Origin: Candidatus Eremiobacterota bacterium
GTDB taxonomy: Bacteria > Vulcanimicrobiota > CADAWZ01 > Ess09-12
Length of the DNA stretch: 62,735 nucleotides
Reading direction: 5' to 3'
NCBI GenBank assembly: GCA_031082125.1
Contig: JAVHLM010000036.1
Coordinates: 1 to 62,735, forward strand
Made by a program: the position numbers and the translations under genes. Below the pieces are notes generated by a model that saw only the letters and a program-made list of their open reading frames with translations, did no database searches and was not told the origin of the DNA. This document shows, piece after piece, positions 6,800 to 30,218 of the stretch. Every line of letters starts with the position of its first letter. Position 1 is the first letter of the stretch.

Positions 6800-6801
6800 G
6801 G

Positions 6802-8772: not shown

Positions 8773-8780
8773 GGGAAACT

Positions 8781-9236
8781 ATGAGTGACAAGGTGGAAAC
8801 AGTGAAAACGGAAGAAAGCGCGTGGGAGCCGAAGATAGTAGGCTTTCTCTGCCAGTGGTGCAGCTATGCCGGCGCCGACCTTGCCGGCTCGTCAAGGTTC
8901 ACCTACCCGCCCAATGTCCGCGTCATCCGCGTTCCCTGCTCGGGAAGGGTCAACCCCCTTTACATATTGAGAGCTTTCAAGAAAGGGGCAGACGGGGTGC
9001 TTGTCGCGGGATGCCATCCCGGCGACTGCCATTACAACGAGGGCAACTACTACGCGAGGCGGAGGCTCACCATGCTGGGAAAGATTCTGGGGCACATCGG
9101 CATAGAGCCGGAGCGCTTCCGCCTCGAATGGGTCTCCGCCTCGGAGGGCGGAAGGTTTGCCGACGTGATAAAAGCAGTGGCCGGGCAGGTAAAAAAGCTC
9201 GGGCCTCTTGAATTGAGGAAAAGAAAAAATGGATAA
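8781..9236 (+). CDS. flxD: MvhD/FlxD-like [2Fe-2S] electron-transfer subunit (Cys form)
   Basis: The product is about 151 residues and belongs to the MvhD/FlpD family, which links HdrA to an electron-input module. Conserved parts are [15 protein letters not shown], then VPCSGRVNP, then GCHPGDCHY. The Cys in GCHPG aligns with the TGA-encoded position of the paralogue at 15536-15955, so this is the cysteine version. I chose ATG 8781 (GAGGG 5 bases upstream); an in-frame GTG at 8769 overlaps the hdrA end. The 3' end overlaps the next gene by 8 bases. Confidence 0.9.
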   Translation: MSDKVETVKTEESAWEPKIVGFLCQWCSYAGADLAGSSRFTYPPNVRVIRVPCSGRVNPLYILRAFKKGADGVLVAGCHPGDCHYNEGNYYARRRLTMLGKILGHIGIEPERFRLEWVSASEGGRFADVIKAVAGQVKKLGPLELRKRKNG

Positions 9237-14141: not shown

Positions 14142-14179
14142 TACCTGATAAACCTCCATCAGAATAAAATTGCATGATG

Positions 14180-15124
14180 CTAAACGTTGGCCTTTGTCGG
14201 CAGGGGACGCAGGTTGCCATGGGAGCCGACAAAGCGGTTGAGGATTGCCCTTCTGTCTACCACGCTCTGAGCATTCAAGCCTACCGATGCCAGCGAGCCC
14301 ATCATATCCACCATGGGCTTGGCGCCCTTGCGGATAGGACCGAAGCAGCCGCGGCAGGGCATTCTCGCCTGTATACAACGGGGTGCGCCGGACTTGCCGG
14401 CACAGCCAGCCCGTGTGACGGTGCCCATGCACAGCCAGCCCTGCTCCATGATGCAGCGCATTTTTTCAATCGGCTCATCGGGGTTGTACTCCACGCTCTC
14501 CAGCGATCTCTTCACTGAGCCTCCTCCGCCTTTCTTCTCGCGGATTACCTTGCAGGTATCGCATACGCTTCTTTCTTCGAGCTTCCAGTCAGTTTTACCG
14601 GCAAGCAGGGCAAGAATGGCTTCAGCGATAAGATCGGGGTGAGGAGGGCAGCCTGGCAGGAATATATCCACTTTTACCACTTCGTCCAGGGCCTTCACAT
14701 TGTCCGTGTAAGCCGGTATCACTTCTGCGGGCGGAGCGGCAGGCGCATGGGTGGGGCAGTCACCATATACCTTGGCGAGAATATCTTCATTCTTCCACAT
14801 GTTTGCCTGGGCGGGGATCCCGCCATCGGTGGCACATGTGCCCAGTGCTATCAGAATATCCACCTTCTTGCGCATCTCCTCGGCAATTTCCTTGTGCTCG
14901 TGGTTCCTTATGCCGCCTGAGATTATTCCCACTGTCGCCTTGGGAAGCTCAAGTGTTGTTGATTCTCCCGTGGCGCCGAAGTACTTGCTGTCCACCAGGG
15001 CGGGGATATGCACAAGCTCAATCTGTGAAGGGATGAGATCCAGAATCGCGTCGCCGATGTTGAGAAGGGATATCTCGCAGCCGGAGCAGGAATTAAGCCA
15101 CTCTGACGATACTTTTACAGCCAT
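14180..15124 (-). CDS. mvhG: Hydrogenase small subunit, MvhG type
   Basis: The product is 314 residues. Cys motifs of the NiFe-hydrogenase small subunit are visible: SCSGCEISLLN (proximal cluster), GTCATDGG, FLPGCPPHPD, and a C-terminal set (GWLCMG, AGCAGKSGAPRC, MPCRGCFGP) for further 4Fe-4S clusters. It passes electrons from MvhA to MvhD. The ATG has a strong AAGGAGGTG. About 180 bases separate it from the small gene upstream, which leaves room for an internal promoter, but I see no clear one. It is followed by mvhA 38 bases downstream. Confidence 0.92.
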   Translation of the reverse strand: MAVKVSSEWLNSCSGCEISLLNIGDAILDLIPSQIELVHIPALVDSKYFGATGESTTLELPKATVGIISGGIRNHEHKEIAEEMRKKVDILIALGTCATDGGIPAQANMWKNEDILAKVYGDCPTHAPAAPPAEVIPAYTDNVKALDEVVKVDIFLPGCPPHPDLIAEAILALLAGKTDWKLEERSVCDTCKVIREKKGGGGSVKRSLESVEYNPDEPIEKMRCIMEQGWLCMGTVTRAGCAGKSGAPRCIQARMPCRGCFGPIRKGAKPMVDMMGSLASVGLNAQSVVDRRAILNRFVGSHGNLRPLPTKANV

Positions 15125-16022: not shown

Positions 16023-19000
16023 CTAGCAGCATGGCTCTAGGGCCGCGTCTATCATTGCGGTCAGCTGCTGCAGCTTGAAGTTCTTTATATAGACGCCCTG
16101 CTTGGGGCAGGTGGCCATGCACACGCCGCAGCCCTTGCACAGGGAAAGGTTTACCTCGACAGTCTTCTTCACGGAGCCATCATAGGCGTAGTCAAGCAGC
16201 GTGATGGCTTTGAAAGGGCATGGATCGACACAATAGGCGCAGCCGTCGCAGTTTTCATCAACGATATGAGAGAGCGCGGCGTTAAGCTCCACTTCATCTT
16301 TGGAGATAAGTGTCGTAGCGCGGGCTGCAGCGCCCTGGGCCTGCGAGATGCTCTCTCCTGCCGTCTTGGGAGTGTGGGCTATGCCGCAGAGAAAGATGCC
16401 TTCCGTGGCAAAGTCCACGGGCCGCAGCTTCATGTGGGCCTCAAGGAAAAAGTTGTTCTGGTCCGTCGAGACTTTCAGCATCTGGCTGATTTCCTTGTTG
16501 TCCTCGTTGGGCACTATGGCCGGCGCGAGGGAGAGTATGTCGGGGTGGATAACCAGGTCAGCGTCCAGGATGGGATCCTTCACCTTCACGGTGAGCCTGT
16601 CTCCTTCCTTTGACACGACGGGCTTTTCATTCTCATCGTACCGGACAAAGATTACGCCCATCTCCCGTGCCCTGCTGTAGTATTTTTCAAGAAGGCCATA
16701 GGTGCGAATGTCTCTATAGAGGATATAGACCTGGGTGTCCTTTTTCTTCTCCCTGAGGAGAACGGCGAGCTTTACGGCCTCGCCGCAGCATACCCTGCTG
16801 CAGTATGGCCTTGCCTCCTCCCTGGACCCGACGCACTGGATCATCACCACGGTCTTTACATTCTGGAGCTCCCCCTTCATTATCTTCTCCTCGAGATCCT
16901 GGTGGGTGATGACACGGGGATCCTGGCCGTAAAGGTATTCCGTGGGCTTGTATTCCTTCGCGCCTGTTGCTACTATTATAGCGCCATGCTGTATATCCGT
17001 CGTCTTGTCACCCTGGGTGACGGTGGATTTGAAATTCCCAAAGGTGCCTTCCAGTGCCGTAAGCTTTGCCTCAACGTAGAGATGGATATTCGGGTTCTTC
17101 CTTACCCTCTCTATGGTGTCGCTCAGTTTTTTCTGCGGATCTTCGCCGCTGAGGGTGAATCGGATCTTCCTGAAGTTGCCTCCGAGCTCTTTGTCCTTTT
17201 CCACGAGATGGACCTCGAAGCCCTGTTCCGCAAGCTCGGCGGCGGCAGTCATCCCCGCAAGGCCTCCCCCGATGACAAGCGTTGCCTTGTTTATCTTGAG
17301 GGTCTTGCCGTAAAGAGGCTCAAGAAGGCGGGATTTCGCCACTGCCATCCTCACGAGATCCTTCGCTTTCATCGTGCCTGCCCGGGGGTTGGTCATGTGG
17401 ACCCAGGAGCACTGGTCCCTGATGTTGGCCATCTCGAAGAGATAGGGATTCAGCCCGGCCTCGCGGACGGAGCTCCGGAAAAGAGGCTCATGGGTCCTCG
17501 GCGTGCACGAGGCGACAACGACCCTGTTCAGATTGTGTTCCTTGATGATGTCCTTGATGACATTCTGGCTGTCCTCAGAGCACGCATAGAGCATGTTCGT
17601 GGAAAAGACCACGTCGGGAAGATTCTTTGAGTATTCCACCACATCGGGGACGCTGAGGTACCCTGCGATGTTGGTGCCGCAGTGGCAGATGAAGACGCCG
17701 ATCCTTGGCTCCTGGCCGGCCACGTCAATCTCGGGGGAGAGCTCCTTTTTACCGACAAGGGTGCCCCTTTCTTCGGCGATGAGCTTTCCCGCGAGAGAGG
17801 CCGCGCCTGACGCCTGCATAACCGTCTCCGGTATGTCCTTGGGGCCCTGAATCGAGCCTGCGATATATACTCCCGGCCGGGAGGTCTCGAGGGGCTCGAG
17901 CTCCATGCTTTTGCAGAAGCCGTATTCATCCATTTCAATCCCCAGGCGGGCGGCGGCATCCTTCATGGACTGCGGAGAGCACAGTCCCACGGAAAGCACC
18001 ACGATGTCAAACTCTTCCTCAGAGAGCTTTCCTTCTTCATTCTCATACTTCAGGAGCAGGTTTCCCGTGCCGGGTATTTCGCTCACTTCCGAGACCCGGG
18101 CCCTCTCAAACTTCACGTTGTTTTCTTTTTTCGCCTTCTCGTAGTATGCGTCAAAACCCTTGCCGAAGGTTCTCATGTCCATGTAGAAAATCTTGGTTTC
18201 CAGCTCCTCCTTGGAGTGCTCCTTCGCGATTATGGCTTCCTTGACGGCATAGGTGCAGCACACCGAGGAGCAGTATTCCTTGGCATAAGATGGGTCGCGG
18301 GAGCCCACGCACTGGATGAAGGCCATCCTTTTGGGCGCTTTCCCGTCAGAGATCCTCTGAAGGTGCCCTTGGAAGGGCCCTGATGCGGAAAGGATCCTTT
18401 CCAGCTCCAGTGAGGTGACCACGTTCTTGTATCTGCCGTAGCCGTATTCCCCCTTGAGGCTCGCCTCAAACTTATCGTGGCCGGGAGCCAGGATGATCGT
18501 TCCCACCTCGAGGTCAATGAGCTGCTCCTTTTGATCGTAGTTGATGGCCTTCGCCTCGCAGACCTCGGCGCAGACGCCGCATTTTCCTTCAAGCATGTGC
18601 ACGCAGTACCGGGGATCAATCGTGGCTTTTCTTGGCACGGCCTGGGGATAGAGAATATAGATGGGGGGGCGGGACCTCAGCTTCTCGTCAAACTCGGCCT
18701 CGATGGGAAGGGGCTCGCACTTCGTAATGGCCGAGAGCTTTATCTTGCCCGTGGGGCATATCTGGGCGCAGGCGCCGCAGACCTGGCAGACGTCGGTGAG
18801 GTGGCCGAAGGGCGTTCCCACTTCCCTCTTGTAGCCGCGGTGGATAAAGCCTATCCCCGAAGGCCCCATCCGCTCTGCGCACATTCTTACGCAGAGGCCG
18901 CAGAGTGTGCAGTCTGATGCCATGCTCTTTATTCTCGTCTCGGTGACGCCGAGCTTCTTCGCCATATCCCTGACCTCCTGGGAATCGGGGCACCGGGCGA

Positions 19001-19277
19001 GGAGGAGCTCTGCGAGGACCTTGCGAAGCTTGAGGATCCTGGGGGATGCCGTTTCCACCGAGAGGCCCTCTTCGGCAGGATAGGTGCAGGAGGCCTCAAC
19101 GGCCGTCCAGGTCTTCCCTTTCAGCTCCACGATACAGAGCCTGCAGGCGCCGTAAGGCTCCAGGGCTTTATGGTAACACATGGTCGGTATCTCTATACCC
19201 AGCTTGGCTGCAGCTTTCAGGATAGTGGCGCCCTTTTCCACCTGGACTGGCTTGCCGTCAATGGTGAGGTTAATCAT
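16023..19277 (-). CDS. hdrA: NuoG-N / HdrA / HdrA triple fusion flavoprotein
   Basis: The product is 1084 residues. Residues 1-230 resemble the N terminus of NuoG and [FeFe] hydrogenases: a [2Fe-2S] domain (MCYHKALEPYGACRLC) then 4Fe-4S motifs (CTLCGLCVRMC, CQVCGACAQICP). About 230-520 is an HdrA core lacking its own N-terminal Rossmann motif (FIQCVGSRDPSYAKEYC). About 535-1084 is a nearly complete second HdrA (IGVFICHCGTNIAG, VIGGGLAGMTAAAEL, FIQ-like MIQCVGSREEARPYC) ending with two ferredoxin clusters (CDGCAYCVDPCP, CKGCGVCMATCP). It probably bridges NuoEF-type NADH oxidation, the Mvh hydrogenase and HdrBC. The start overlaps the upstream gene. Fusions of HdrA copies are known in anaerobes; this exact triple layout merits checking. 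Confidence 0.9.
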   Translation of the reverse strand: MINLTIDGKPVQVEKGATILKAAAKLGIEIPTMCYHKALEPYGACRLCIVELKGKTWTAVEASCTYPAEEGLSVETASPRILKLRKVLAELLLARCPDSQEVRDMAKKLGVTETRIKSMASDCTLCGLCVRMCAERMGPSGIGFIHRGYKREVGTPFGHLTDVCQVCGACAQICPTGKIKLSAITKCEPLPIEAEFDEKLRSRPPIYILYPQAVPRKATIDPRYCVHMLEGKCGVCAEVCEAKAINYDQKEQLIDLEVGTIILAPGHDKFEASLKGEYGYGRYKNVVTSLELERILSASGPFQGHLQRISDGKAPKRMAFIQCVGSRDPSYAKEYCSSVCCTYAVKEAIIAKEHSKEELETKIFYMDMRTFGKGFDAYYEKAKKENNVKFERARVSEVSEIPGTGNLLLKYENEEGKLSEEEFDIVVLSVGLCSPQSMKDAAARLGIEMDEYGFCKSMELEPLETSRPGVYIAGSIQGPKDIPETVMQASGAASLAGKLIAEERGTLVGKKELSPEIDVAGQEPRIGVFICHCGTNIAGYLSVPDVVEYSKNLPDVVFSTNMLYACSEDSQNVIKDIIKEHNLNRVVVASCTPRTHEPLFRSSVREAGLNPYLFEMANIRDQCSWVHMTNPRAGTMKAKDLVRMAVAKSRLLEPLYGKTLKINKATLVIGGGLAGMTAAAELAEQGFEVHLVEKDKELGGNFRKIRFTLSGEDPQKKLSDTIERVRKNPNIHLYVEAKLTALEGTFGNFKSTVTQGDKTTDIQHGAIIVATGAKEYKPTEYLYGQDPRVITHQDLEEKIMKGELQNVKTVVMIQCVGSREEARPYCSRVCCGEAVKLAVLLREKKKDTQVYILYRDIRTYGLLEKYYSRAREMGVIFVRYDENEKPVVSKEGDRLTVKVKDPILDADLVIHPDILSLAPAIVPNEDNKEISQMLKVSTDQNNFFLEAHMKLRPVDFATEGIFLCGIAHTPKTAGESISQAQGAAARATTLISKDEVELNAALSHIVDENCDGCAYCVDPCPFKAITLLDYAYDGSVKKTVEVNLSLCKGCGVCMATCPKQGVYIKNFKLQQLTAMIDAALEPCC

Positions 19278-19740
19278 CTTCTTGCTCCCCTTTCATTTCC
19301 GATGTATCGAGACGATAATGCTCGTCCCCGCTCTTGTGCTCATAGACAAAATCCGTGTCAGGGTTTGACTGGATCATTATTCTCAATATTTCCGCGATGT
19401 CTCCCAGGGGCTGCCTGTCAATATGGGAATAACCGAAGGTGGCCTTCACCCTCGTGCCTTTCCCTTCCTCAGAGACTATCTCCATTGTTCCTCCGCAGGC
19501 CTGTGCCGCCTGCTTCAGGAGAGGGAGCCCAAGGCCTACCCGCCTGGTGGTCCTTGTGGTAAAAAAGGGATTCTGCACTCTCTTCACGTCCTCTTCTTTC
19601 AGGCCTCTCCCGTTATCCTCAATCTCTACGGTGAGCAGGTCCTTCTCAGCATCCTCAGTCACCTTTATAGAGACTCTCTTTGCCGAGGCATTGATGGAGT
19701 TTTCAACAATATCCAGGATATGGGCCGACAGGTCCTCCAT
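19270..19740 (-). CDS. Stand-alone histidine-kinase-like ATPase protein
   Basis: The product is 156 residues with a GHKL ATPase domain: N box (HILDIVENSINASAKRV), G1 (IEDNGRGLKEEDV), and an F/G2 stretch (PFFTTRTTRRVGLGLPLLKQ). There is no dimerisation His domain, so it may act as an RsbW-like protein kinase, or as a partner of another protein, rather than as a classical sensor kinase. Homologues commonly sit in clusters for electron-bifurcating hydrogenases with PHP, DRTGG and CBS genes, as here. It overlaps the fused hdrA start. Confidence 0.85.
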   Translation of the reverse strand: MEDLSAHILDIVENSINASAKRVSIKVTEDAEKDLLTVEIEDNGRGLKEEDVKRVQNPFFTTRTTRRVGLGLPLLKQAAQACGGTMEIVSEEGKGTRVKATFGYSHIDRQPLGDIAEILRIMIQSNPDTDFVYEHKSGDEHYRLDTSEMKGEQEDD

Positions 19741-19742
19741 TG

Positions 19743-20522
19743 CTATGACCGGCAGGCTCCACGACTAGCGTGGGCCATTCCCTCCTCGCCTTCAAGTATT
19801 TTTCTGCCTTCCACGCCGAGGAAAGCTTTCCGCAGCTCTTCAACAGTCACATCCTCAACGAGCACCCGGGTGAAGCTCTTGCCGATCTCCTCCAGCCTGT
19901 GGGCATCCGATGAGGTTATCAAAGGGAACGCGCCCACCGCAAGAGTTTTACGGGCTTTCTCATAAGTAATTCTGGGCGATATCTCCAGGGCATCGAGCTT
20001 GAGGGAAGGGGGAATAAAGCCCAGCTGGGTTATTATTCCGAAACCCTCGCGATCCACATGCGATGCCACTGCCAGCCCGGAAAGCCTGTGTATCTCTTTT
20101 ACAATTGCATTGATTGACAACTTCGTCGCTCCTATCAGGAGATGCTCGTTCAGCTCCGAAGGCTCATCCTCTTCATCGGTGACGATCTGATAGCCGAACG
20201 CCTCGGTATCATTCTCACCCTCAAGATTCTCATAGATGATTCTCTGGAGCTCAAAGAGGCTCTCGTTGTCTTCGAATAAGGAGAGCACATGGACCTCCTC
20301 CCTGGAGGTGACCTCTATGCCGCCCAGAACCCTTATCCCGTTCCTTTCTCCCGCTCTTTGCGCGGCCACGACGTTCTCCGCCGAGTTATGGTCGCATATC
20401 GCCACTGCATGGAGACCTTTTTTCTTCGCCTCCATCACTATCATCCCGGGCGTCATCTCCAGTTCCCCGCAGGGTGAAAGGCACGAATGAATATGCAGAT
20501 CCATGGAGAATGGCCTGAGCAT
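19743..20522 (-). CDS. PHP-domain phosphoesterase
   Basis: The product is about 259 residues. Metal-binding motifs of the PHP superfamily are present: DLHIHSCLSP, AICDHNSAEN, GIEVTSREEVHVL, VASHVDREGFG and ITSSDAHRLEEIG. The substrate is unknown; relatives hydrolyse phosphate esters or nucleotides. ATG 20522 almost abuts the previous gene; a later ATG at 20504 (MDLHIH) is possible. Its place among DRTGG, CBS and ATPase genes suggests a regulatory phosphatase or nucleotide-second-messenger role, but that is inference. Confidence 0.85.
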   Translation of the reverse strand: MLRPFSMDLHIHSCLSPCGELEMTPGMIVMEAKKKGLHAVAICDHNSAENVVAAQRAGERNGIRVLGGIEVTSREEVHVLSLFEDNESLFELQRIIYENLEGENDTEAFGYQIVTDEEDEPSELNEHLLIGATKLSINAIVKEIHRLSGLAVASHVDREGFGIITQLGFIPPSLKLDALEISPRITYEKARKTLAVGAFPLITSSDAHRLEEIGKSFTRVLVEDVTVEELRKAFLGVEGRKILEGEEGMAHASRGACRS

Positions 20523-20523
20523 G

Positions 20524-20868
20524 TCACCGCGAGCCTTTGATACCCATCTCGTAGAGCCTGCCGATGATTTCGAAAGCCGGAAGCCCGGTAACCAGTAAAG
20601 GCAGATGCTCCTCTTCGGCCAACTGGACAGTGTCCTCTTCCGGGACCCTGTCATTGACGAGGATCACGCCGGCGACGCCCTTCAGCGTGGCGACAGCCAC
20701 GATATTCTGGTGGGTCTGCAGCGTGACCCAGAGGTCGTCTTTCCGGGCATTGGCCATCACGTCGGAGAGCAGATCGCTCGCGTAACCCCCGGTGACTTCC
20801 CGTTCCAGTTCCGAGCGCGCCGTTTTCACTTCGAGACCCATTTTTTCCACTAACTCCTGCAGCTTCAT
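20524..20868 (-). CDS. DRTGG-domain protein
   Basis: The product is 114 residues and is a single DRTGG domain (PF07085): REVTGGYASDLLSDVMA, then TLQTHQNIVAVATL and ILVNDRVPEEDTV. The family is usually found fused to CBS or phosphotransacetylase domains, or in hydrogenase operons, and has no established activity. It overlaps the CBS-ATPase gene by 4 bases. Confidence 0.85.
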   Translation of the reverse strand: MKLQELVEKMGLEVKTARSELEREVTGGYASDLLSDVMANARKDDLWVTLQTHQNIVAVATLKGVAGVILVNDRVPEEDTVQLAEEEHLPLLVTGLPAFEIIGRLYEMGIKGSR

Positions 20869-21803
20869 TTTCCCTCGCTTTGGTTTAAATTCACTATGAA
20901 TTTAAGAATAGTCCCTCTCCCCACTTCTGATACCAGCTTCATTTCATCACTGCATTTCTTGATATTGCATAATCCCATCCCCGCTCCGAACCCCAGCTCC
21001 CTTACCCACTCAGGCGCCGTGGAATAACCTGGCTTCATGGCGAGCTCGATATCGGGAATCCCCGGGCCGCGGTCGCTCACCACGACCGTTATCTTGCTCG
21101 GCTTGACGGTCGCCAGGATAATGCCTCCCTCCGTATAGGATACCACGTTTATTTCCGCTTCATAGGTCGCGATGGAGACTCTCTGCAGGACCGCTGAAGG
21201 TATGCCCAGCCTGGAGAGAGACTTCTTGAAGTTGGTGGAGGCTTTCCCCGCCTTGCGGAAGTCCTTGCCCACAACTTTGTATTTGAACTTCAATATCATC
21301 TCATCGGCGAGGAGATCCTCAAAGATATGGCTCGCCCTTATCTTGTGGATCTCCTCTTCAAGGTAGCTGCTCTGAAGCTTGTGGAGCAGCCCCTTGATGA
21401 TGTTTCCCTTGGTGAGGATTCCCAGGAGCCTGTCGCTCTCCCTTTCAATTACAGGGAACCGGCCGAAGCCCTGCTTGCTGAATTTCATGATTGCCTGCAT
21501 CAGTATCTCATCAGAATACACGGACTTGACCTCTTTGTTCATCCAGTTGCTCACCGGTTCGCCTATCTTTCCCTCGACAAGGCACCTTATCAGGTCTTCG
21601 ATGCTTATGATCCCCACCATTTTTTCGCCATTCACCACCGGGATGCCGGAGATCTTTTTCTGGCGCAGCATTTCCTTGAGATCCTCCATGGTCGCATCGG
21701 GACCTATGGTGACAAGGTTCTTTACATAGACGTCCTCCACTTTCAGTTCATAGGCGAGACTGTGAACCTTTGAAAATTTTTCCTCTATGCTGTCGTCTAT
21801 CAT
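20865..21803 (-). CDS. CBS-pair / RsbW-like ATPase fusion
   Basis: The product is 312 residues. Two CBS motifs lie in the first 150 residues (KISGIPVVNGEKMVGIISIE and GRFPVIERESDRLLGILTKG); CBS pairs often sense adenine nucleotides. A short linker is followed by a GHKL ATPase of the anti-sigma/RsbW type: VSIATYEAEINVV as N box, DRGPGIPDIELAM, and GFGAGMGLCNIKK. It may read cellular energy state and control a partner by phosphorylation or binding. It overlaps the following DRTGG gene. Confidence 0.88.
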   Translation of the reverse strand: MIDDSIEEKFSKVHSLAYELKVEDVYVKNLVTIGPDATMEDLKEMLRQKKISGIPVVNGEKMVGIISIEDLIRCLVEGKIGEPVSNWMNKEVKSVYSDEILMQAIMKFSKQGFGRFPVIERESDRLLGILTKGNIIKGLLHKLQSSYLEEEIHKIRASHIFEDLLADEMILKFKYKVVGKDFRKAGKASTNFKKSLSRLGIPSAVLQRVSIATYEAEINVVSYTEGGIILATVKPSKITVVVSDRGPGIPDIELAMKPGYSTAPEWVRELGFGAGMGLCNIKKCSDEMKLVSEVGRGTILKFIVNLNQSEGK

Positions 21804-22193
21804 TTAGGCTCCAAAATCAGTTATTCCGCGAAGCCTCGGGCAATAAAGCCTTCCACAGCTCTCGACCATGGAAAATTTTGTCGCGATAAGAGGGAGGTTG
21901 ATCTCCCTGGCAAGCTCAATGACCTCCTCATCGGGCAGCTTGCCGCGGACAAAACAGAGCGCTTTCAGGTTTGCTATCTCTGCCGTGCGCACCACCTGGG
22001 TGCTCGTAAGTCCCGTGAGCAGAAGGCAGTTCGGCTTGACAAGGGTAAGCACATCGCTCATCAGATCGGAGGCGCATGTCGAGGCGATGACTGTCTCTTT
22101 CCAGTCGTCAGTCTCAACTATCGCATCAGCTTCTAGAATCTCAAGAATATTTCCAAGGGTGAGCTCATGCTTAACGCTGTTTTCCAGTTCCAT
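21804..22193 (-). CDS. DRTGG-domain protein
   Basis: The product is 129 residues. The core motif CASDLMSDVLTLVKPNCLLL and the segment TSTQVVRTAEIANLKALCFV mark a DRTGG domain. It closely resembles the protein encoded at 29826-30218 (SDLMSDVLAFVKPDCLLFTG), so the two are paralogues. The ATG has AAAGGAG upstream. It directly follows nuoF and precedes the CBS-ATPase gene. Confidence 0.85.
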   Translation of the reverse strand: MELENSVKHELTLGNILEILEADAIVETDDWKETVIASTCASDLMSDVLTLVKPNCLLLTGLTSTQVVRTAEIANLKALCFVRGKLPDEEVIELAREINLPLIATKFSMVESCGRLYCPRLRGITDFGA

Positions 22194-22225
22194 GGGAGCT
22201 CCTTTCTATCATGCGGGCACACGCC

Positions 22226-24007
22226 CTATCTGATGACCACCGCTTCGAACTTGCAGGCTTCATGGCAGGCACCGCACTTGAGGCACTTCGCCTGCTCAAC
22301 GACATGGGCCGTCTTTTTCGCGCCGGTGATGGCCTCATTGGGGCAGGCCTTGATGCAGAGCCCGCAGGCCTTGCATTTTTCCGCATCAATATGATATTCT
22401 ATCAGCACTTTGCATACGCCGCCCGGGCATTTCTTGTCCTTGACGTGGGCAAGGTATTCATCCTTGAAATAGCGCAGCGTGGAACGGACCGGGTTGCCGG
22501 CAGTCTTACCCAGCCCGCACAGTGAAGCCGACGAAACCGTCTGGGCAAGGTCTTCGAGAAGCTCTATGTCACTTTCTTTTCCCTCTCCCTTGCAGATATC
22601 CTCAAGGACGTCGCTCATGGCAATGAGGCCGTCCCTGCACGAGGCGCATTTACCGCATGACTCGTCTTTCAGAAAATTGGTGAAATACCGGGCCACGTCA
22701 ACCATGCAGGTATTCTCGTCCATGATTATCATGCCGCCGGAGCCCATCATGGAGCCCGCTTCAATGAGGCTGTCATAGTCAACAGGCTGGTCCAGCAGGC
22801 TCTCCGGGAGGCAGCCCCCTGAAGGCCCGCCGGTCTGGACGGCCTTGAATTTCTTCTTTTTGGGTATTCCGCCGCCGATTTCGTAGATTATCTCTCTCAG
22901 GGTGATCCCCATGGGTACTTCCACGAGCCCGGCGTCATTGATGTTCCCTACGAGCGAAAATATCTTTGTCCCCTTGCTCTTTTCCGTACCGATGGAGGCG
23001 AACCACTCAGAGCCCCGGAGGATTATCTGCGGCACCGTTGCCCAGGTTTCCACGTTGTTGATGACTGTCGGCCTGCCCCAGAGCGCGGTCCTGGGGGGAC
23101 GCTGCCTCGGCTCGGGAGGCTTCCCCTCGATGGACGCGACGAGAGCCGTCGTCTCACCGCACACGAATGCCCCTGCGCCCCTGAAGATGGAGATGTCAAA
23201 GCTGAAATTGGTGTCAAAAATCCCCTCCCCCAGCAATCCGTACTCTCGTGCGGCATCTATGGCTTTTTCCAGCCTCTCGATGGCAAGGGGGTATTCATTT
23301 CTGGTGTATATATAGCCCTTGCAGGCGCCGATCGCATAGGCACCGATGATCATTCCTTCCAGGACAGAGTGGGGATCAGACTCAATGGCGCTTCTGTCGC
23401 AGAAGGCGCCGGGATCGCCTTCATCGGCATTGCAGACGATGTACTTGAAGTCTCCTTCCATCTTTGCGCGGCTTTCCCATTTTCTCCCCGTGGGGAAACC
23501 GCCGCCGCCCCTTCCTCTCAGGCCCGACTTCTTAATCTCCTCGATCACTTCCTGGGGCTTCATCTGCGACAGGGCCTTGGCAAGGGCCTTGTAACCGTCG
23601 CGGGCGATATATTCATCAATCTTCTCGGGATCGATGAGGCCCCTGTTTCTCAGCACAATCAAGGTCTGACGCTTGAAAAAATCGATATCGGAGAGCGTGG
23701 GCACCGGCACCTTTTCCTCGGGAGGCTTGTACATGAGCTTCTGAACGGGTCTCCCCTTGAGGAGATGCTCTTCTACAAGATGAGGGACATCTTCGGGCTT
23801 TACCTTCTGGTAGAAGACTTCGTCGGGCATCACAATCACGACGGGGCCCACGGCGCAGGAACCCTTGCAGCCTGTCATCACTATGAGCACCTCGTTCTGC
23901 AGTTCTTTCTTTTTCAGTTCCTCTTCAAAGACCTCTTTTATTTTAAATGACTGGTTTGTGGCGCATTCAGTGCCGGCACAGACCATCACATGTGTCCTGT
24001 ATGGCAT
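22226..24007 (-). CDS. nuoF: NuoF/HydB-like NADH-binding flavoprotein subunit
   Basis: The product is 593 residues. The N terminus is a thioredoxin-like [2Fe-2S] domain (CAGTECATNQ, then CKGSCAVGP). The NuoF core follows with the NADH/FMN glycine-rich motif (GRGGGGFPTGRKW), CNADEGDPGAF, an SLBB region, and the N3 cluster motif (ESCGKCASCRDG with a later Cys in LCGLGKTAGNP). Two ferredoxin clusters close the protein (CKACGLCIKACP, CLKCGACHEACK). This is the layout of HydB/HymB of electron-bifurcating hydrogenases. It probably oxidises or reduces NAD(H) for the HdrA-MvhADG complex. The ATG has GGAGG upstream. Confidence 0.92.
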   Translation of the reverse strand: MPYRTHVMVCAGTECATNQSFKIKEVFEEELKKKELQNEVLIVMTGCKGSCAVGPVVIVMPDEVFYQKVKPEDVPHLVEEHLLKGRPVQKLMYKPPEEKVPVPTLSDIDFFKRQTLIVLRNRGLIDPEKIDEYIARDGYKALAKALSQMKPQEVIEEIKKSGLRGRGGGGFPTGRKWESRAKMEGDFKYIVCNADEGDPGAFCDRSAIESDPHSVLEGMIIGAYAIGACKGYIYTRNEYPLAIERLEKAIDAAREYGLLGEGIFDTNFSFDISIFRGAGAFVCGETTALVASIEGKPPEPRQRPPRTALWGRPTVINNVETWATVPQIILRGSEWFASIGTEKSKGTKIFSLVGNINDAGLVEVPMGITLREIIYEIGGGIPKKKKFKAVQTGGPSGGCLPESLLDQPVDYDSLIEAGSMMGSGGMIIMDENTCMVDVARYFTNFLKDESCGKCASCRDGLIAMSDVLEDICKGEGKESDIELLEDLAQTVSSASLCGLGKTAGNPVRSTLRYFKDEYLAHVKDKKCPGGVCKVLIEYHIDAEKCKACGLCIKACPNEAITGAKKTAHVVEQAKCLKCGACHEACKFEAVVIR

Positions 24008-24020
24008 CTTGATCCTCCCT

Positions 24021-24404
24021 CTATGCTATTGTTTCACTTCCCACGGCAAGGGCAAATTCTTTCACTATGTTGCCTTTCAGCGCGTGCTCCTCGAGAATCT
24101 TGAGGGCTTTTTCCGCCGTGAGGCTTATGTATTTCACCGGTGCCTGGTCCTTTATCTCCACGGTCATCATCGGCTCTTTGCTGCAGAGGCCGGCGCACCC
24201 TGAAGTGGTGAGAATCACTTCCTTTATTCCCTGCTTTTCAAACGCTTCCATCAGGGCGCTCATGACCTTCCTCGCCCCTGCCGCGATGCCGCATGTTCCC
24301 ATGTGAACGGTAATCTTGGCTTTTGCCTCGCCTTCCCTCACATAGGTCTCTTTCCTCACCTTTTCCTTGATCTTGTCGATATCCTCAAACTTAAGCTTTG
24401 CCAT
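24021..24404 (-). CDS. Thioredoxin-like [2Fe-2S] ferredoxin
   Basis: The product is about 127 residues. Cysteines in MGTCGIAAGA and TTSGCAGLCSKEP are arranged as in the [2Fe-2S] domains of HydB N termini and NuoE. I start at ATG 24404 (GGAGG upstream). The first 14 bases overlap the preceding HdrA-NuoE gene. It is probably an electron carrier between NuoE and NuoF. Confidence 0.85.
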   Translation of the reverse strand: MAKLKFEDIDKIKEKVRKETYVREGEAKAKITVHMGTCGIAAGARKVMSALMEAFEKQGIKEVILTTSGCAGLCSKEPMMTVEIKDQAPVKYISLTAEKALKILEEHALKGNIVKEFALAVGSETIA

Positions 24405-25281
24405 GGGCCGCCTCCTTCGCTCTATAATCACCTATGATCTTGGATACATCCTTTATCGTCACCCCGCCGTAAAACTCCTCATTAATCTTCACCACGGGGG
24501 CCAGGCCGCAGCACCCCAGGCAGAGCGCTTCGCCGATGGTAAACAACCGGTCCTTCGTGGTTTCGTCCATTTTCACCGCAAGCTCTCTTTCAAAGGCGTC
24601 AATGATTTTCGGCGCCCCCTTGACGTGGCATGTGGTGCCTTTACAGATCGTTATCAGGTACTTCCCTATGGGGGTGAGCCTGAAGGCATGATAGAACGTG
24701 GCGATATGGTATATCATGCTCAGGGGGACCTGCATCTCGTAAGACACATATCTCAGGCAGTCCTCAGGGAGGTAGGTGAATGCCGAGTTGACGTCATGGA
24801 GTATGGAGACAAGGCCCCCTTTCTGCCCCCCATGCCTTCCCAGAATCTCCTGCATCTTCGGAAGCTTTTCCTTGTTGAGGTCCACTTTCCCGACTTCCAT
24901 CCTGTAGATCTTATAGCGCACCGGGCATTCTTCCTCGCAGCTGCCACAGCCCGTGCACTTGTCTTCGTCCACGAAGCCCGGGTGCTTCTTGACCCTCACA
25001 TGGAAGTTCCCCGCCTCTCCTTCAAGTTTTTCTATCTCTGCGTGGGTGATGATCTCAATGTTGGGGTGCCTTCCGCAGTCCACCAGCTTCGGAGCCATGA
25101 TGCACATGGAGCAGTCATTGGTGGGGAAGGTCTTGTCGAGCTGGGCCATTCTCCCGCCGATGCTCGGCTTTTCCTCTATAAGGTACACCTTGTACCCTGA
25201 TTCCGCCAGGTCCAGCGAGGCCTGGATTCCGCCGATTCCACCGCCTACTACCATTGCTGCGCCTACTTTTTTCTTGCTCAT
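24391..25281 (-). CDS. HdrA N-terminal fragment fused to NuoE
   Basis: The product is 296 residues. Residues 1-125 are the HdrA FAD-binding start (VVGGGIGGIQASLDLAESGY), its CxxxC motif (NDCSMCIMAPKLVDCG) and one ferredoxin cluster (CTGCGSCEEECPV). The rest of HdrA is absent. From about 135 to the end it is NuoE (HydC-like): YLPEDCLRYVS, CKGTTCHVKGAP and LCLGCCGLAPVV, giving the [2Fe-2S] ligands. There is no frame break at the junction and the ATG has GGAGG upstream, so this is a real fusion, not debris. It may dock the NuoEF module onto HdrBC or the fused HdrA. Confidence 0.88.
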   Translation of the reverse strand: MSKKKVGAAMVVGGGIGGIQASLDLAESGYKVYLIEEKPSIGGRMAQLDKTFPTNDCSMCIMAPKLVDCGRHPNIEIITHAEIEKLEGEAGNFHVRVKKHPGFVDEDKCTGCGSCEEECPVRYKIYRMEVGKVDLNKEKLPKMQEILGRHGGQKGGLVSILHDVNSAFTYLPEDCLRYVSYEMQVPLSMIYHIATFYHAFRLTPIGKYLITICKGTTCHVKGAPKIIDAFERELAVKMDETTKDRLFTIGEALCLGCCGLAPVVKINEEFYGGVTIKDVSKIIGDYRAKEAAHGKA

Positions 25282-25330
25282 TGTGTCTTCCTCCCCTTCG
25301 GGAATTACTTCCTGACGGCTGGATTCGCTG

Positions 25331-26191
25331 TCAGGCTTTTATTTTTTCGACGTGCTCCACAAGTGCTTCAGTGGAGATAAGGTTTTTCGAGAGCCCCAGC
25401 TCTTCCGGATCAATTCCGAAGGCGAGGCCGATAAGCTGAGTGAAATAGATGACCGGTATCTTCTCCTTGACCGATTCTATCTCGTCTGCAAGAGTCTCCA
25501 GGGTCATTGAGCACTGGGGGCAGAGCACGACTATGGCGTCGGGCTTCAGTTTCTGTGCTTCCTCCCACAGTTTTGTCGTCATTTTGAGTGAAAGAGGCTT
25601 GTCCGCCATCAGAAGGGCGCCGCCGCAGCAGCGCGCCTTGAGGGGGAAGGGAAGGGCCTCCCCGCCCAGGGCCTCGATAATCCCTTCCATGAGCGTGGGG
25701 TTTTCGGGGTTGTCCGCCTTGAGGACCTTGGAAGGCCTGAGGAAGTTGCAGCCATAGTAAGGGATGAACTTCAGGCCCTTCAGGGGCTTTTTTACCTCAT
25801 TCCTGATTTTTTCCGGCGGCATGTCCCTCATAATCTCCAGGGGGTGCCTTACCTCGATCTGGGCTATCTTGTCCTCGATGACATTCTCGATCTTCTCCCT
25901 GAAGGCGGGGTCCTCTTTCACATGGAAATTTGCCTTTGCGTGGTTGCTGTAGCAGGCGGCGCAGGAAATCACCAGGGTCTCGTGATTCTTGCTGAAAAGG
26001 GCCAGGTTCCGGGCAGGCAGCGCCGTGGCCAGGATCTGGTTCACGCAGGAGGCCTCAAAAGCTCCGCAGCAGTTCCAGTCGTGCACTTCCTCAAGCTCAA
26101 GGCCGAGCTTGTGAAAAACCGCCTTCAGAGACATGTCATATTCCCTGGCGGAACTGTCGGCAAGACAGCCGGGAAAATATCCTAACTTCAT
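25331..26191 (-). CDS. hdrB: Heterodisulfide reductase subunit B-like protein (second copy)
   Basis: The product is 286 residues with two CCG domains: DWNCCGAFEAS with SCAACYSNH, and ARCCGGALL with CPQCSMTLE. All cysteines expected for the two non-cubane clusters are present. The ATG overlaps the hdrC stop by 4 bases. It is clearly divergent from the copy at 5903-6799, so the two operons probably serve different acceptors or conditions. Confidence 0.9.
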   Translation of the reverse strand: MKLGYFPGCLADSSAREYDMSLKAVFHKLGLELEEVHDWNCCGAFEASCVNQILATALPARNLALFSKNHETLVISCAACYSNHAKANFHVKEDPAFREKIENVIEDKIAQIEVRHPLEIMRDMPPEKIRNEVKKPLKGLKFIPYYGCNFLRPSKVLKADNPENPTLMEGIIEALGGEALPFPLKARCCGGALLMADKPLSLKMTTKLWEEAQKLKPDAIVVLCPQCSMTLETLADEIESVKEKIPVIYFTQLIGLAFGIDPEELGLSKNLISTEALVEHVEKIKA

Positions 26192-26778
26192 TTATTTGCC
26201 TCCTCTGCTCTCTTTTTGATGTTCCTCACCTTGCTGCTTGTTCCCACGAGGGGAACTGGAGGGATGACGCGGATCTTGCCTTTCGGGAAAAACTTCATTC
26301 CAAGGGGCATATAGTCGATTAAGCCTTTCAGGTTTGCCGTGCCCAGGAAGAACAGTGGAAGGAGCGCCGGTTCCCAGACCTTCCCGAAGAGCTCGGTACA
26401 GGTCATGAAACTGCGGGCAAATACATAGCCGGGAGCCTTGATTCTCTTTCCCTTCTTTTTCGCATCCTTGATGGCGAGGCTTCTCATGGCCCCTATGATA
26501 TCGGTGAAGCGGACGTCCTGGGGGCATCTCTGGTGGCACTGGTAACAGTGGGCGCACTGCCAGATGAAATCAGATTCCAGGACCTTGTCTTTCATCCCGA
26601 GAAGAGCCATCCTGATTATCTTTCTCGGATTGTAGCCGTCATCTATCTCCCTCACGGGGCATCCCGCCGAGCATGTGCCGCAGGCAAAGCAGCGCATTAT
26701 CATCTCCCCGCCCGGCTCCTTGGCTATCTCGTATTTAAAGTCGGGATCCAGTTTCTCCACATCAATTACTTCTCTCAT
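26188..26778 (-). CDS. hdrC: Heterodisulfide reductase subunit C-like protein (second copy), first gene of the long operon
   Basis: The product is 196 residues with two cluster motifs (CFACGTCSAGCPVREI and CAHCYQCHQRCPQDV). The ATG has GGGAGG 7 bases upstream. It is the first gene of a - strand operon that runs with overlaps or short gaps for about 14.7 kb to the hydrogenase protease gene. Confidence 0.9.
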   Translation of the reverse strand: MREVIDVEKLDPDFKYEIAKEPGGEMIMRCFACGTCSAGCPVREIDDGYNPRKIIRMALLGMKDKVLESDFIWQCAHCYQCHQRCPQDVRFTDIIGAMRSLAIKDAKKKGKRIKAPGYVFARSFMTCTELFGKVWEPALLPLFFLGTANLKGLIDYMPLGMKFFPKGKIRVIPPVPLVGTSSKVRNIKKRAEEANK

Positions 26779-27081
26779 GCCCGCCTCCCTTGTGCTCAGC
26801 TCATTTTAATCATTGGACGAACCAGTTCATATACTCTCCATAATTGGAACACTGGAATAATTGAATGCCCCCCGGCGCGGTCAGGACATTGATATTCATT
26901 ATCATAAAGCGCATGCGATTCTTAAGCTATCAGATGCTCTATGCTGAAAAATTAAATTCAAATGCCTCTTTCCGGGCTGAAAAGAGTGGTTCGCATACAG
27001 TCTATATCTGTTCCTTCTGAAGAGGCACCTGCCAAGTCATATTCTTCAAATTGCGCCGCATTCCTTTACCATGACACAAAA
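26779..27081 (-). promoter_or_regulatory. Intergenic region upstream of the Hdr-hydrogenase operon
   Basis: No credible gene is visible in this 303-base AT-rich spacer. It should hold the promoter of the operon starting at 26778. A direct repeat ATAATTG occurs at 26840-26846 and 26857-26863, 17 bases apart, and could be an operator. I see no clear sigma-70 pair. Confidence 0.4.
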
Positions 27082-28380
27082 TTATTGCCCGGACATGCCG
27101 CAGGGCTCACTTCGCCCGGTGAGGTTCATTTTGAAAAAAATGCATTCGCTCAAGTCCTGCTCCCCATAGGCGCAGTCCTCGGCAAAAGTCTCGCAGTCAG
27201 GAGAGCCGCAAAGGCCGCAGTTCTTGTGAGGGAGCTTCATGTATATCCGCTCTTTCTGGCGCATTCTCTTTATTGATATGGATATGTCATGCTCTTCGGG
27301 CCTTGTGGAACGGGGAAGAACGGGGCGCTCATGGAAATAGTGGCCCCTTCTCAGATTCTCCTTTATCCTCCGCTCATTGAAAGCATATCCCATTGAGAAC
27401 CTGTGGGAAAGCTGCAGGGAATTATGGCTTGCGATATAGGGATTCTGCACGCACAGGACGCCGTTCACACATCCCAGGAGGCAGGCCATGGGCTCCAGGT
27501 AGAGGATATTCATCAGCTCCCCGTTCTCTATATCCTCGAAAATCTTCTTTATATTGTCAAGACCGGTCACATAGAGGCATTTTTCCTGCTCCTCGAAAAG
27601 GGTGACATGATTGAAAAAGCTGCTGTCCTCTCCAAAGTAATAGTCATGCGGAGGCATGAACTTCTTTTCCTTCTGGATCTCCAGGATCTCCGGCAGCAGC
27701 AGGTTATAGACATCTCTTATGGAGATGGTGATGTCAAACCATGAGTGGTCAGCGCCTGCAGGCTGTTTTATGGATACGGCCTTTGCCAGGCATGGGGAGA
27801 TGAAGGCAATCCCTATTCTCTCCGGGGGGATCGCGAGCTTCGCCGAATACTGCTTCTTCACCTCGCGGGCAAGAAGCTCCATGGGCACGTCAAATTTTGA
27901 GAGATGCTCTATGAGATTTGGATAGCTCACCTGGACAAACCTCACCACAGCGGGGCAATAAATGCTGATGATGGGCCGGGGGCCCCGGTATGTCTCGAGA
28001 TGAAGCTTGAGCGCCAGGTCAACTTCATTGTTCATTTTGAAAATATCCACTACTTCATTGAAGCCGATTCTTTTCAGGGCTTCATGAATGAGGAGAGGGT
28101 GGACATTCTCGCCGAACTGCGTATAAAGGACTGGCGAAGGGATGACAATCTTATATTCAAAAGCCTTTGAGTCTTCCAGGACATTGAGATCGGGGATGAA
28201 TACCTTTTCCTTGCAGCTGTGAAGGCAGATCCCGCAATAAATGCAGAACTTCTCAAGAAAGACTATCTTTCCGTTACGGTAACGAAGGGCCTTTGTGGGG
28301 CAGGCCCTGAGGCAGTCGAGGCGGCCCTTGCAGCGGTTGCTGATGATCTGGTGTGAATAGTGAAATTCGGGGGATGTCAT
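27082..28380 (-). CDS. [FeFe]-hydrogenase-like H-cluster protein with N- and C-terminal Fe-S domains
   Basis: The product is 432 residues. Two ferredoxin motifs lead (CKGRLDCLRACP, CIYCGICLHSCK). The Fe-hydrogenase catalytic domain follows: L1 is IYCPAVVRFVQ (one Cys instead of CC), L2 is ISPCLAKAVS (lacking the usual Glu), L3 is EPMACLLGCVNG. Near the C terminus is a small Fe-S domain (LPHKNCGLCGSPDCETFAEDC). The four cluster-ligand cysteines seem kept, but the proton-shuttle Cys is Tyr. This fits sensory or non-catalytic group C/D-like proteins rather than a fast hydrogenase. It overlaps the upstream DRTGG-ATPase gene by 4 bases, supporting a sensor role. Confidence 0.85.
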   Translation of the reverse strand: MTSPEFHYSHQIISNRCKGRLDCLRACPTKALRYRNGKIVFLEKFCIYCGICLHSCKEKVFIPDLNVLEDSKAFEYKIVIPSPVLYTQFGENVHPLLIHEALKRIGFNEVVDIFKMNNEVDLALKLHLETYRGPRPIISIYCPAVVRFVQVSYPNLIEHLSKFDVPMELLAREVKKQYSAKLAIPPERIGIAFISPCLAKAVSIKQPAGADHSWFDITISIRDVYNLLLPEILEIQKEKKFMPPHDYYFGEDSSFFNHVTLFEEQEKCLYVTGLDNIKKIFEDIENGELMNILYLEPMACLLGCVNGVLCVQNPYIASHNSLQLSHRFSMGYAFNERRIKENLRRGHYFHERPVLPRSTRPEEHDISISIKRMRQKERIYMKLPHKNCGLCGSPDCETFAEDCAYGEQDLSECIFFKMNLTGRSEPCGMSGQ

Positions 28381-29210
28381 GCTACTTTGAATTTCATCTC
28401 CACTCTGGTTCCTTTCCCCACTTCCGAAGACACGATGAGCTCATCGGAGTTCTTCTTCATGTTGGGAAGCCCCATGCCCGCGCCAAACCCCATTGCCTGC
28501 TGCTCCCTGGTGGCCGTCGAGAATCCTTCCTGCATGGCCTGCTCAATATCAGGAATTCCCTTGCCCACGTCATTGATGACCACGACAATCTCGTTGTCAC
28601 TTGTGGTGAGTGTCACCTCGGCCATTTTTGCGTGCATCACGACGTTCATCTCGCCTTCATAGGTGGCAATGGCCACGCGGCGGATAAGCTTGGTGTGGTA
28701 ACCGATAGTCTTCAATATTGACTTGATCTGCGTTGAGACCATCCCTGCGCTGGCAAAGTCCCCCCCGTCTATCTGAAAGCTATGGAGATTGACGTTTTCG
28801 GGCTTACCGATTGTCATGGCTCCCTTACTGCAGACCGCCGGGCTGCTCTGCAGCCTGTCAATCTCCCTGCAGGCCTCATAGGTGTCCATGGGAGAGGCCA
28901 GCATGATGATATGCTTGTCCTCTGCGAACCTTTTCATATCACCGGAGGGAATCTTGCCTCGAAGGACTGCTATGGCAACGAACTCGGTCATGTGGCTTGA
29001 TATGACGGCCTGCACGGTGTTAAGACCTGTGAGAAGGAGGGAGCCTGGCTTGCCGTATGCGAGCACGTCGCTCATAAGGTCTGAAGCATAGACGCATTTA
29101 ATGCGGCGGCCAGTCAGGTCAGCGCCGACAATGACCGTTGCCTGCAGAACCTCCTGGATCTTGATAAGTTCTAAGCCTGTTTCTTCCTGCATCTGAATGG
29201 CGCCGGTCAC
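28377..29210 (-). CDS. DRTGG domain fused to RsbW-like ATPase
   Basis: The product is 277 residues. The N-terminal DRTGG domain reads YASDLMSDVLAYGKPGSLLL. A GHKL ATPase from about 145 on has VAIATYEGEMNVV, NDVGKGIPDIEQAM and GFGAGMGLPNMKK, nearly identical in motif spacing to the CBS-ATPase protein at 20865-21803, with DRTGG in place of CBS. The GTG start overlaps the upstream gene by 4 bases, and the end overlaps the H-cluster protein gene. This links the regulatory ATPase physically and genetically to an H-cluster protein. Confidence 0.87.
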   Translation of the reverse strand: MTGAIQMQEETGLELIKIQEVLQATVIVGADLTGRRIKCVYASDLMSDVLAYGKPGSLLLTGLNTVQAVISSHMTEFVAIAVLRGKIPSGDMKRFAEDKHIIMLASPMDTYEACREIDRLQSSPAVCSKGAMTIGKPENVNLHSFQIDGGDFASAGMVSTQIKSILKTIGYHTKLIRRVAIATYEGEMNVVMHAKMAEVTLTTSDNEIVVVINDVGKGIPDIEQAMQEGFSTATREQQAMGFGAGMGLPNMKKNSDELIVSSEVGKGTRVEMKFKVA

Positions 29211-29533
29211 ACACCGGCCTCCGCAAGTTTTTTGCCCAGCGCATCTGCCGGGAGAGGACTTGAAAGTATGATCACGCCGAAACGGTTGGCGAGCACTACG
29301 GTGCCCTGAGGGACTTCCCTGTTCTCAGGCACGACGATAGCGGCGATATCGATAAGGTTGGCGGCTGATACGACGTTCTTGTGGGTCTGCGTAGTGATCC
29401 ATATATTCGAGGCGGCAGCGCTGCTCATTACATCAGAAAGCATATCAGATATATATATGCCGCAAGCGTCTTTGTCTCCCATATCGCTGAGTGGCTTGAG
29501 GTCACATGATTTCACGAGCTCTGCTATTTTCAT
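29207..29533 (-). CDS. DRTGG-domain protein
   Basis: The product is about 108 residues. The motif YISDMLSDVMSSAAASNIWI and the following TTQTHKNVVSAANL match the DRTGG protein at 20524-20868 (TLQTHQNIVAVATL). ATG 29533 has AGGAGGAG upstream. It is the first gene of the three-gene sensor operon that includes the H-cluster protein. Confidence 0.83.
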   Translation of the reverse strand: MKIAELVKSCDLKPLSDMGDKDACGIYISDMLSDVMSSAAASNIWITTQTHKNVVSAANLIDIAAIVVPENREVPQGTVVLANRFGVIILSSPLPADALGKKLAEAGV

Positions 29534-29825
29534 CGGACTCCTCCTGAAAGACTTATGGTCCACAATTATATCTTAAATTGCACAGAATTATTATTTTCTC
29601 CTTTTGAAGCCCGATCATGTTTCTCCGGGAATTGAGAGGAGGGAGCAGGGAGGTCGGGGGCCGGAGGACCCTGGCGTTGAAAGTAATTCAAATAAGAAGG
29701 CATAAGGAGGAGGCGCCTTGAATATTCCAGAAAAATCTCTTCCCTCAGGCATAAAAGCGACGAGATGCAGACTTTATCGCAGCAACAGATCAAGCATATT
29801 GTGAGAACAGGAGTGCTATTTTTCA
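29534..29825. promoter_or_regulatory. Divergent promoter region between two DRTGG genes
   Basis: This AT-rich spacer of about 290 bases separates genes reading outward in both directions. I see no gene or strong hairpin in it. It must contain promoters for both the three-gene sensor operon and the + strand DRTGG gene. Confidence 0.4.
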
Positions 29826-30218
29826 ATGAACGCTCTCAGGAAGCAAAAACTGTCAATTAATCTTGAAAAGGTGGCCGAGGTGCTTGAGACGGAGCTCCTC
29901 AACGAGACCGATGGCTGGAGAAATATCCCTATTGCCGCGGCATGCGGCTCAGACCTCATGAGCGATGTCCTTGCCTTTGTAAAGCCCGACTGCCTTCTCT
30001 TCACAGGCCTTACCAACATCCAGGTGGTAAGGACTGCCGAGATCACGGACCTCAAAGCCGTATGCTTTGTGCGGGGGAAAAAACCGACGCCTGATGCGCT
30101 TGAGCTCGCCAGGAAACTGGGCATTCCCATCCTTGCCACGAAGCTCCCCATGTTTGAGAGCTGCGGCAGGCTTTACATGCACGGCGTGCAGGGCGTGTCG
30201 GAAATGGACCGCAGTTAA
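29826..30218 (+). CDS. DRTGG-domain protein
   Basis: The product is 130 residues. ACGSDLMSDVLAFVKPDCLL and TNIQVVRTAEITDLKAVCFV make it a close paralogue of the protein at 21804-22193. It is the only member of the DRTGG set on the + strand. An AGGAG lies about 12 bases upstream of the ATG, somewhat far. Confidence 0.85.
   Translation: MNALRKQKLSINLEKVAEVLETELLNETDGWRNIPIAAACGSDLMSDVLAFVKPDCLLFTGLTNIQVVRTAEITDLKAVCFVRGKKPTPDALELARKLGIPILATKLPMFESCGRLYMHGVQGVSEMDRS

Follow-up and report, generated by a model that had tools for sequence, protein, structure and literature searches.

The stretch analysed here (the window) is a contig of 62,735 nucleotides from a Candidatus Eremiobacterota bacterium (JAVHLM010000036.1, assembly GCA_031082125.1). 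At positions 27082-30218 it carries a gene for a protein of the [FeFe]-hydrogenase family, related to the putative sensor HydS, next to genes for DRTGG-domain proteins and a GHKL-family ATPase. We lean towards the view that this protein is a descendant of HydS without the [2Fe] part of the H-cluster ([2Fe]H), kept as an iron-sulphur (Fe-S) redox sensor for a partner-switch-like module. An H-cluster-free protein is suggested because the maturases are undetected and the losses of pocket residues are unique to it. That this pseudo-hydrogenase was retained by a duplicated module after the host exchanged an [FeFe] hydrogenase for an Hdr/NuoEF/[NiFeSe] complex has, in our estimate, an even chance of being correct. 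The gene content, the conserved gene set, the clade, the pocket substitutions and the undetected maturases described below were all obtained by computation. The features at the centre of the argument are as follows.

27082-28380, minus strand: HydS-like protein (group D/M2e descendant) with two N-terminal Fe-S clusters, an H-domain and a C-terminal Cx2Cx4Cx16C motif; probably without [2Fe]H
28321-28323, minus strand: Arg20 in the first N-terminal cluster motif, at the site of its second Cys (CxxRxxCxxxC)
27952-27960, minus strand: L1 motif Tyr141-Cys142-Pro143 (YCP), preceded by Ile140, the S/T298 equivalent
27610-27621, minus strand: SFFN, residues 254-257; x-G-G in the other homologues, [ST]GGE in group D (S249-E252 of TamHydS, the protein of Thermoanaerobacter mathranii), mapped by published residue numbers
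28377-29210, minus strand: DRTGG-I domain fused to a SpoIIAB/RsbW-like GHKL ATPase (Pfam profiles, alignment)
29207-29563, minus strand: DRTGG-II protein (alignment, 36% to the 20524 protein; no Pfam match alone)
29826-30218, plus strand: divergent DRTGG-I protein (alignment, 50% to the Subdoligranulum DRTGG-I)

The HydS-like protein is 432 residues long and is matched in Pfam by Fe_hyd_lg_C (104 bits) and by the C-terminal Fe-S domain (38 bits). Two N-terminal cluster motifs, in which one Cys is Arg, are followed by the H-domain and a C-terminal Cx2Cx4Cx16C motif, with no PAS domain; this motif in a protein without PAS is the M2e/group D architecture (PMC6984386, PMC8163306). In a tree without the TamHydS sequence itself, and in which the branch of the window protein is long, the latter forms one clade with the HydS proteins of Subdoligranulum and Parabacteroides (100/100). 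Rows of HydS fused to PAS domains or kinases fall outside this clade, as do the group A-like and group B-like rows. The window protein also matches the residues published for group D, namely Arg30, Arg32, Lys35, Glu392 and Asp393 (PMC13104023). Judged by its sequence, the protein appears to be of group D (M2e, TamHydS-like) type and probably descends from HydS. The initial annotation had taken it for a sensory rather than a fast catalytic protein and had named the phylogeny of the H-domain as the check; a predicted sensory role does fit.

The L1 loop reads SIYCP, with Tyr in place of the shuttle Cys of the usual CCP. This replacement had been read correctly at the outset, but it is no clue to a sensor by itself, since loss of the shuttle Cys is common to the group. 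The site is Ala in Subdoligranulum (ACP) and Phe in Parabacteroides (FCP), and because relatives have A, F, L, P, S or C there, YCP was rejected as a special feature. The loss is a group trait that says nothing specific about this locus.

More telling substitutions lie in the pocket, which was aligned with 33 other homologues from groups A to D, some of them near-duplicates; the S/T298 site was covered by 34 rows. The Gly-Gly pair before L3, beside the H-cluster, is present in all 33 other homologues and is Phe-Phe in the window protein. Position 298 (CpI numbering) is Ser or Thr in 34 of the 34 other rows covering it and Ile here. Glu252 of group D is replaced by Asn, and the proton path [ST]249-G-G-E252 reads SFFN here; in TamHydS, the variants E252V and E252D keep <0.01% of H2 oxidation (PMC10407848). 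A local frameshift was rejected as the source of SFFN, as a check of the reading frame revealed none.

The ligands of the Fe-S clusters are largely kept. All four Cys ligands of [4Fe-4S]H (C142, C197, C300 and C304) and K200, the equivalent of Lys358, are in place, the Cys set of the second N-terminal cluster is complete, and the C-terminal cluster retains its Cys (4/4). The N-terminal cluster with Arg20 is probably a [3Fe-4S] cluster, going by its motif; patterns like CxxRxxCxxxC occur in ferredoxins that contain [3Fe-4S] clusters. The retained Cys and Lys358 make a dead gene less likely and point to a protein that is predicted to hold its Fe-S clusters still. Apo-HydS made without maturases holds just those retained clusters (PMC13104023).

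The host genome (7.43 Mb, 97.6% complete; G000 in the comparison of the phylum) encodes only one Fe_hyd_lg_C protein. A search of it for maturases gave no profile match for HydG, a best score of 24 bits for HydE (255 needed) and a best score of 105 bits for HydF (325 needed), the last being an EngA/Era-type GTPase score that other genomes give as well. A misbinned contig was rejected by tetranucleotide composition: the correlation of the window contig with the rest of the genome is 0.81-0.83, compared with 0.77-0.87 for the genome's own pieces and at most 0.69 for other genomes. Fourteen genomes of the phylum have H-domain matches at E 1e-6, and HydG is over the cut-off in 10 of them, the exceptions being G000, G002, G011 and G012. 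G012 (62% complete) has HydE and HydF, with HydG not over the cut-off. In G011 (86% complete) no HydE, HydF or HydG was detected, and it has no strong H-domain match except a kinase-fused HydS-like protein. The HydS-like H-domains fused to histidine kinases in G011 (L026, L042) and G012 (L023, L037) have CxxC instead of CxxxC in L3.

Several observations weigh against a HydS descendant that senses redox state without [2Fe]H. With all [4Fe-4S]H Cys and Lys358 kept, a [2Fe] site could still be installed in the apo-protein. The protein comes from one genome, its closest relative in the phylum is at 26% and there is no close orthologue. G002, from the same order and 89% complete, encodes hydABC and a HydS with intact pockets, yet no HydE, HydF or HydG is over the cut-off; the absence there probably reflects assembly gaps, and because maturases go undetected despite hydABC, absence from an assembly is no proof. 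Finally, no STAS protein, sigma factor or regulator target was seen among the module genes, the genes to which this look was confined, no genome-wide search having been made. The kept ligands and the case of G002 would suit a HydS of the usual group D kind with a functional H-cluster, a slow H2 sensor whose hydEFG genes fall within the 2-3% of the genome left unassembled and whose pocket substitutions only tune it, as would the group D architecture and gene set that are kept. We nevertheless consider this unlikely: the host genome has no catalytic [FeFe] enzyme either, three independent maturase families are undetected at the stated completeness, and among 34 homologues only this protein has lost GG and S/T298.

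The proposed redox sensor belongs with a set of DRTGG and ATPase genes, the rest of which are as follows.

21804-22193, minus strand: DRTGG-I protein (profile, alignment, AlphaFold2 model)
20865-21803, minus strand: CBS-CBS-SpoIIAB-like ATPase, paralogue of 28377 (profile, alignment)
20524-20868, minus strand: DRTGG-II protein (46% to the Parabacteroides DRTGG-II)
19743-20522, minus strand: PHP-domain protein (37-41% to the PHP proteins of two related modules), its start set at Met 45 of the open reading frame 19743-20654
19270-19740, minus strand: stand-alone GHKL ATPase, hisK-like (44-45% to counterparts in related modules)

The start of the HydS-like gene overlaps the stop of the 28377 ATPase gene by 4 nt, as had been pointed out in the initial annotation, and that gene in turn overlaps the 29207 DRTGG-II gene by 4 nt. 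Promoter and terminator scans gave counts at chance level. The ATPase of 28377-29210 had been described as a version of the 20865 protein with DRTGG instead of CBS; indeed, it matches DRTGG (25.4 bits, cut-off 25.2) as well as HATPase in Pfam, and the two ATPase domains are 46% identical over 128 residues. The tally of five DRTGG and three GHKL proteins within 11 kb also holds (19270-30218, 10.95 kb), with 29207 counted by alignment only. The GHKL proteins are 19270, 20865 and 28377, and the DRTGG proteins are 20524, 21804, 28377 (N-terminal), 29207 and 29826. Two of the five DRTGG proteins pass the Pfam cut-off, two are slightly under it and 29207, which aligns at 36% with 20524, has no match.

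Alignment with relatives divides the DRTGG proteins into class I (21804, 29826 and the N terminus of 28377; signature SDLMSDVL...TGL..Q) and class II (20524 and 29207; SDLLSDVM...TQTHQN). As the related modules of Parabacteroides and Subdoligranulum have one member of each class apiece, the window is taken, from these alignments, to hold two copies of the module core. The first would consist of 21804 (I), 20865 (ATPase) and 20524 (II), with PHP and GHKL, and the second of 29826 (I), 28377 (I and ATPase) and 29207 (II), with HydS. The structure that AlphaFold2 predicts for the 21804 protein (predicted local distance difference test score 85.5) is matched by two solved DRTGG structures, 2ioj (AF1212) and 3l31, the latter a nucleotide-regulated CBS-DRTGG pyrophosphatase region. 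A STAS-like fold was considered and rejected, the top 50 Foldseek matches being DRTGG and HPr-kinase N-domains with no STAS among them. The best solved relative of the ATPase domains is SpoIIAB (6e-14); the N, G1 and G2 boxes of GHKL proteins are present, the N and G box residues are invariant and the SpoIIAB-like kinase residues are kept.

This gene set recurs elsewhere. When HydS, PHP, CBS-ATPase and DRTGG queries were compared by tblastn with 72,556 plasmid records, the same two loci, one from Parabacteroides (L053) and one from Subdoligranulum (L052), ranked first for all four. Because the four queries share their two best loci, and no other genome of the phylum has DRTGG, the association of these genes exceeds chance. 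In Parabacteroides distasonis the order is DRTGG-I, ATPase, HydS, DRTGG-II, PHP and GHKL; neither hydrogenase nor nuo genes lie alongside. In Subdoligranulum, DRTGG-I, ATPase, HydS, DRTGG-II and PHP run divergently from hydABC and the GHKL gene that goes with it. The module is thus kept across three phyla. No DRTGG match was found in the other genomes of the phylum (149 genomes), which suggests that the module was acquired from outside it. The Parabacteroides and Subdoligranulum records are labelled plasmids and resemble pieces of chromosome (dnaA on a sister record). The PLSDB "plasmids" NZ_OY725752.1, NZ_OY725779.1 and OY725842.1, from gut isolates, resemble chromosome fragments (dnaA, gyrA). 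A search of genome contigs with the HydS-like protein alone returned only ferredoxin-like archaeal matches, and viral contigs gave no match. No literature linking DRTGG proteins with hydrogenases was found, in an incomplete literature search.

In other clades, HydS proteins are fused to kinases, carry PAS domains or neighbour SpoIIE genes, so the HydS family repeatedly adjoins parts of partner-switch or histidine-kinase systems. At L054:9983-12827 and L055:9974-12812, PAS-type HydS genes overlap the gene for a SpoIIE-family phosphatase by 8 nt. In a partner switch, the SpoIIE phosphatase beside a PAS-type HydS and the kinase beside the group D HydS are opposite arms.

Around the module, the operon encodes an Hdr/NuoEF/[NiFeSe] complex in place of an [FeFe] enzyme.

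22226-24007, minus strand: NuoF/HydB-like (BfuB) subunit of the associated complex (59% to Subdoligranulum HydB)
24021-24431, minus strand: thioredoxin-fold [2Fe-2S] ferredoxin, hydD-like
24391-25281, minus strand: fusion of an HdrA fragment with NuoE
25331-26778, minus strand: HdrB and HdrC
16023-19277, minus strand: NuoG-HdrA fusion subunit, 1084 residues
12693-15124, minus strand: [NiFe] hydrogenase small (VhuG-like) and large subunits, the large one with UGA/selenocysteine in DPULSCATH

Since Nuo, Hdr and [NiFe] subunit genes surround HydS, the H2 chemistry of the locus is predicted to be of the [NiFe] type. There is precedent for a related exchange: HydA of the bifurcating NiFe-HydABCSL enzyme of Acetomicrobium mobile has lost its H-cluster (PMC9304861). 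The large subunit (12693-14432, minus strand) has an in-frame TGA at about 12789-12791, read as DP-U-LSCATH, and this codon is interpreted as placing selenocysteine at the first of the L2 ligands (VhuU-like). SelB is over the cut-off in the host genome, with two matches. Parts of HdrA are redistributed within the one operon, to the NuoG-HdrA protein (16023-19277, minus strand) and the HdrA-fragment/NuoE protein (24391-25281, minus strand). A second, opposite Hdr cluster at 4442-12073 (plus strand) encodes HdrC, HdrB, HdrA, an MvhD-like protein, two Fe-S subunits and a subunit of FAD/NAD type.

The interleaving of module genes with nuoF, hdr and nuoE-like genes could mean that the module is an assembly or protection system, whose chaperone-like partners insert Fe-S clusters or flavin or keep the complex inactive, and no sensor at all. 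Nar1/IOP1, which are eukaryotic relatives of [FeFe] hydrogenases with Fe-S clusters only, take part in assembling Fe-S proteins, which counts for such a role. So does the operon of A. mobile, which includes hisK and hydD although their products are absent from the holoenzyme (PMC9304861). Against it, the Parabacteroides module stands alone, the SpoIIAB-like kinase residues are kept and other HydS genes adjoin SpoIIE phosphatases, and we regard an assembly role as doubtful. That the HydS-like gene is in decay, a relic that happened to outlast the [FeFe] hydrogenase and its maturases, agrees with the long branch, the pocket and cluster-ligand substitutions and the undetected maturases but is improbable given the intact frame of 432 residues, the 4-nt overlaps, the complete Cys sets of the H-domain and C-terminal cluster, the retained Glu-Asp and Arg/Lys positions of group D and the duplicated partner genes next to it.

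For an Fe-S redox sensor without [2Fe]H, the mechanism that we propose is inference beyond the gene content: that the cofactor is missing in vivo, that redox state is sensed, that the ATPases act as kinases and on which targets, what PHP does and what the output is. The Fe-S clusters of HydS would be reduced or oxidised by ferredoxin or NAD(H) electrons from the neighbouring Hdr/NuoEF/[NiFeSe] complex. The redox change might then be passed by binding to the translationally coupled SpoIIAB-like ATPase, which would phosphorylate or sequester DRTGG partners. The CBS and DRTGG domains are perhaps adenylate inputs, the PHP protein is a candidate phosphatase, and the output may tune the synthesis or activity of the complex. 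The initial annotation had H2 or redox state read by the H-cluster protein and passed to the ATPases. That the HydS-like protein belongs with the DRTGG/ATPase set stands; a reading of H2 through the H-cluster is not supported and is probably wrong, as the maturases are undetected and pocket residues kept in every other homologue are replaced, and the redox half of the proposal is favoured over the H2 half.

The case bears on what HydS proteins sense, H2 itself or redox state in general, and on the route by which they signal. The C-terminal cluster of TamHydS is not reduced by H2, which undermines the simplest model (PMC13104023), and TamHydS is not known to have an output partner. A HydS module in a genome seemingly unable to build the H-cluster would amount to a natural experiment, in which the remaining function must be independent of H2 activation; if the interpretation is true, signalling by the HydS module need not involve H2 chemistry. 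The conserved set (two DRTGG classes, SpoIIAB-like kinase, PHP and GHKL) names candidate partners that are approachable in culturable Parabacteroides.

Among known systems, TamHydS (PMC8163306, PMC10407848, PMC13104023) shares with the window protein its architecture, the missing shuttle Cys, a histidine-kinase-like ATPase as neighbour and the equivalents of Arg30/Arg32/Lys35 and Glu392/Asp393. In contrast, the SGGE proton path of TamHydS is SFFN in the window protein, S298 is Ile, the equivalents of Asp378 and Asp403 are Asn and Glu, one N-terminal Cys is lost, maturases are undetected and the neighbours are an Hdr/[NiFeSe] complex rather than [FeFe] HydABC. The Parabacteroides distasonis and Subdoligranulum modules have DRTGG-I, SpoIIAB-like ATPase, HydS, DRTGG-II and PHP in the same order, together with GHKL, but they are single-copy with an intact HydS pocket (TGGE/SGGE), whereas in the window the DRTGG and ATPase genes are duplicated and DRTGG or CBS is fused to the ATPase. 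The partner-switch kinases SpoIIAB/RsbW are the closest solved relatives of the window ATPase domains and share the N and G boxes; unlike them, the window ATPases carry fused DRTGG or CBS domains, and no STAS antagonist or sigma gene was identified nearby. The A. mobile complex (NiFe-Bfu; PMC9304861, PMC8880783) likewise combines a NuoEF-type core with [NiFe] subunits and hisK and hydD genes, to which the window adds HdrA/B/C. Both systems include a protein of the [FeFe]-hydrogenase family without an H-cluster, presumably so in the window, where the loss would have affected a separate HydS and not, as in A. mobile, the catalytic HydA.

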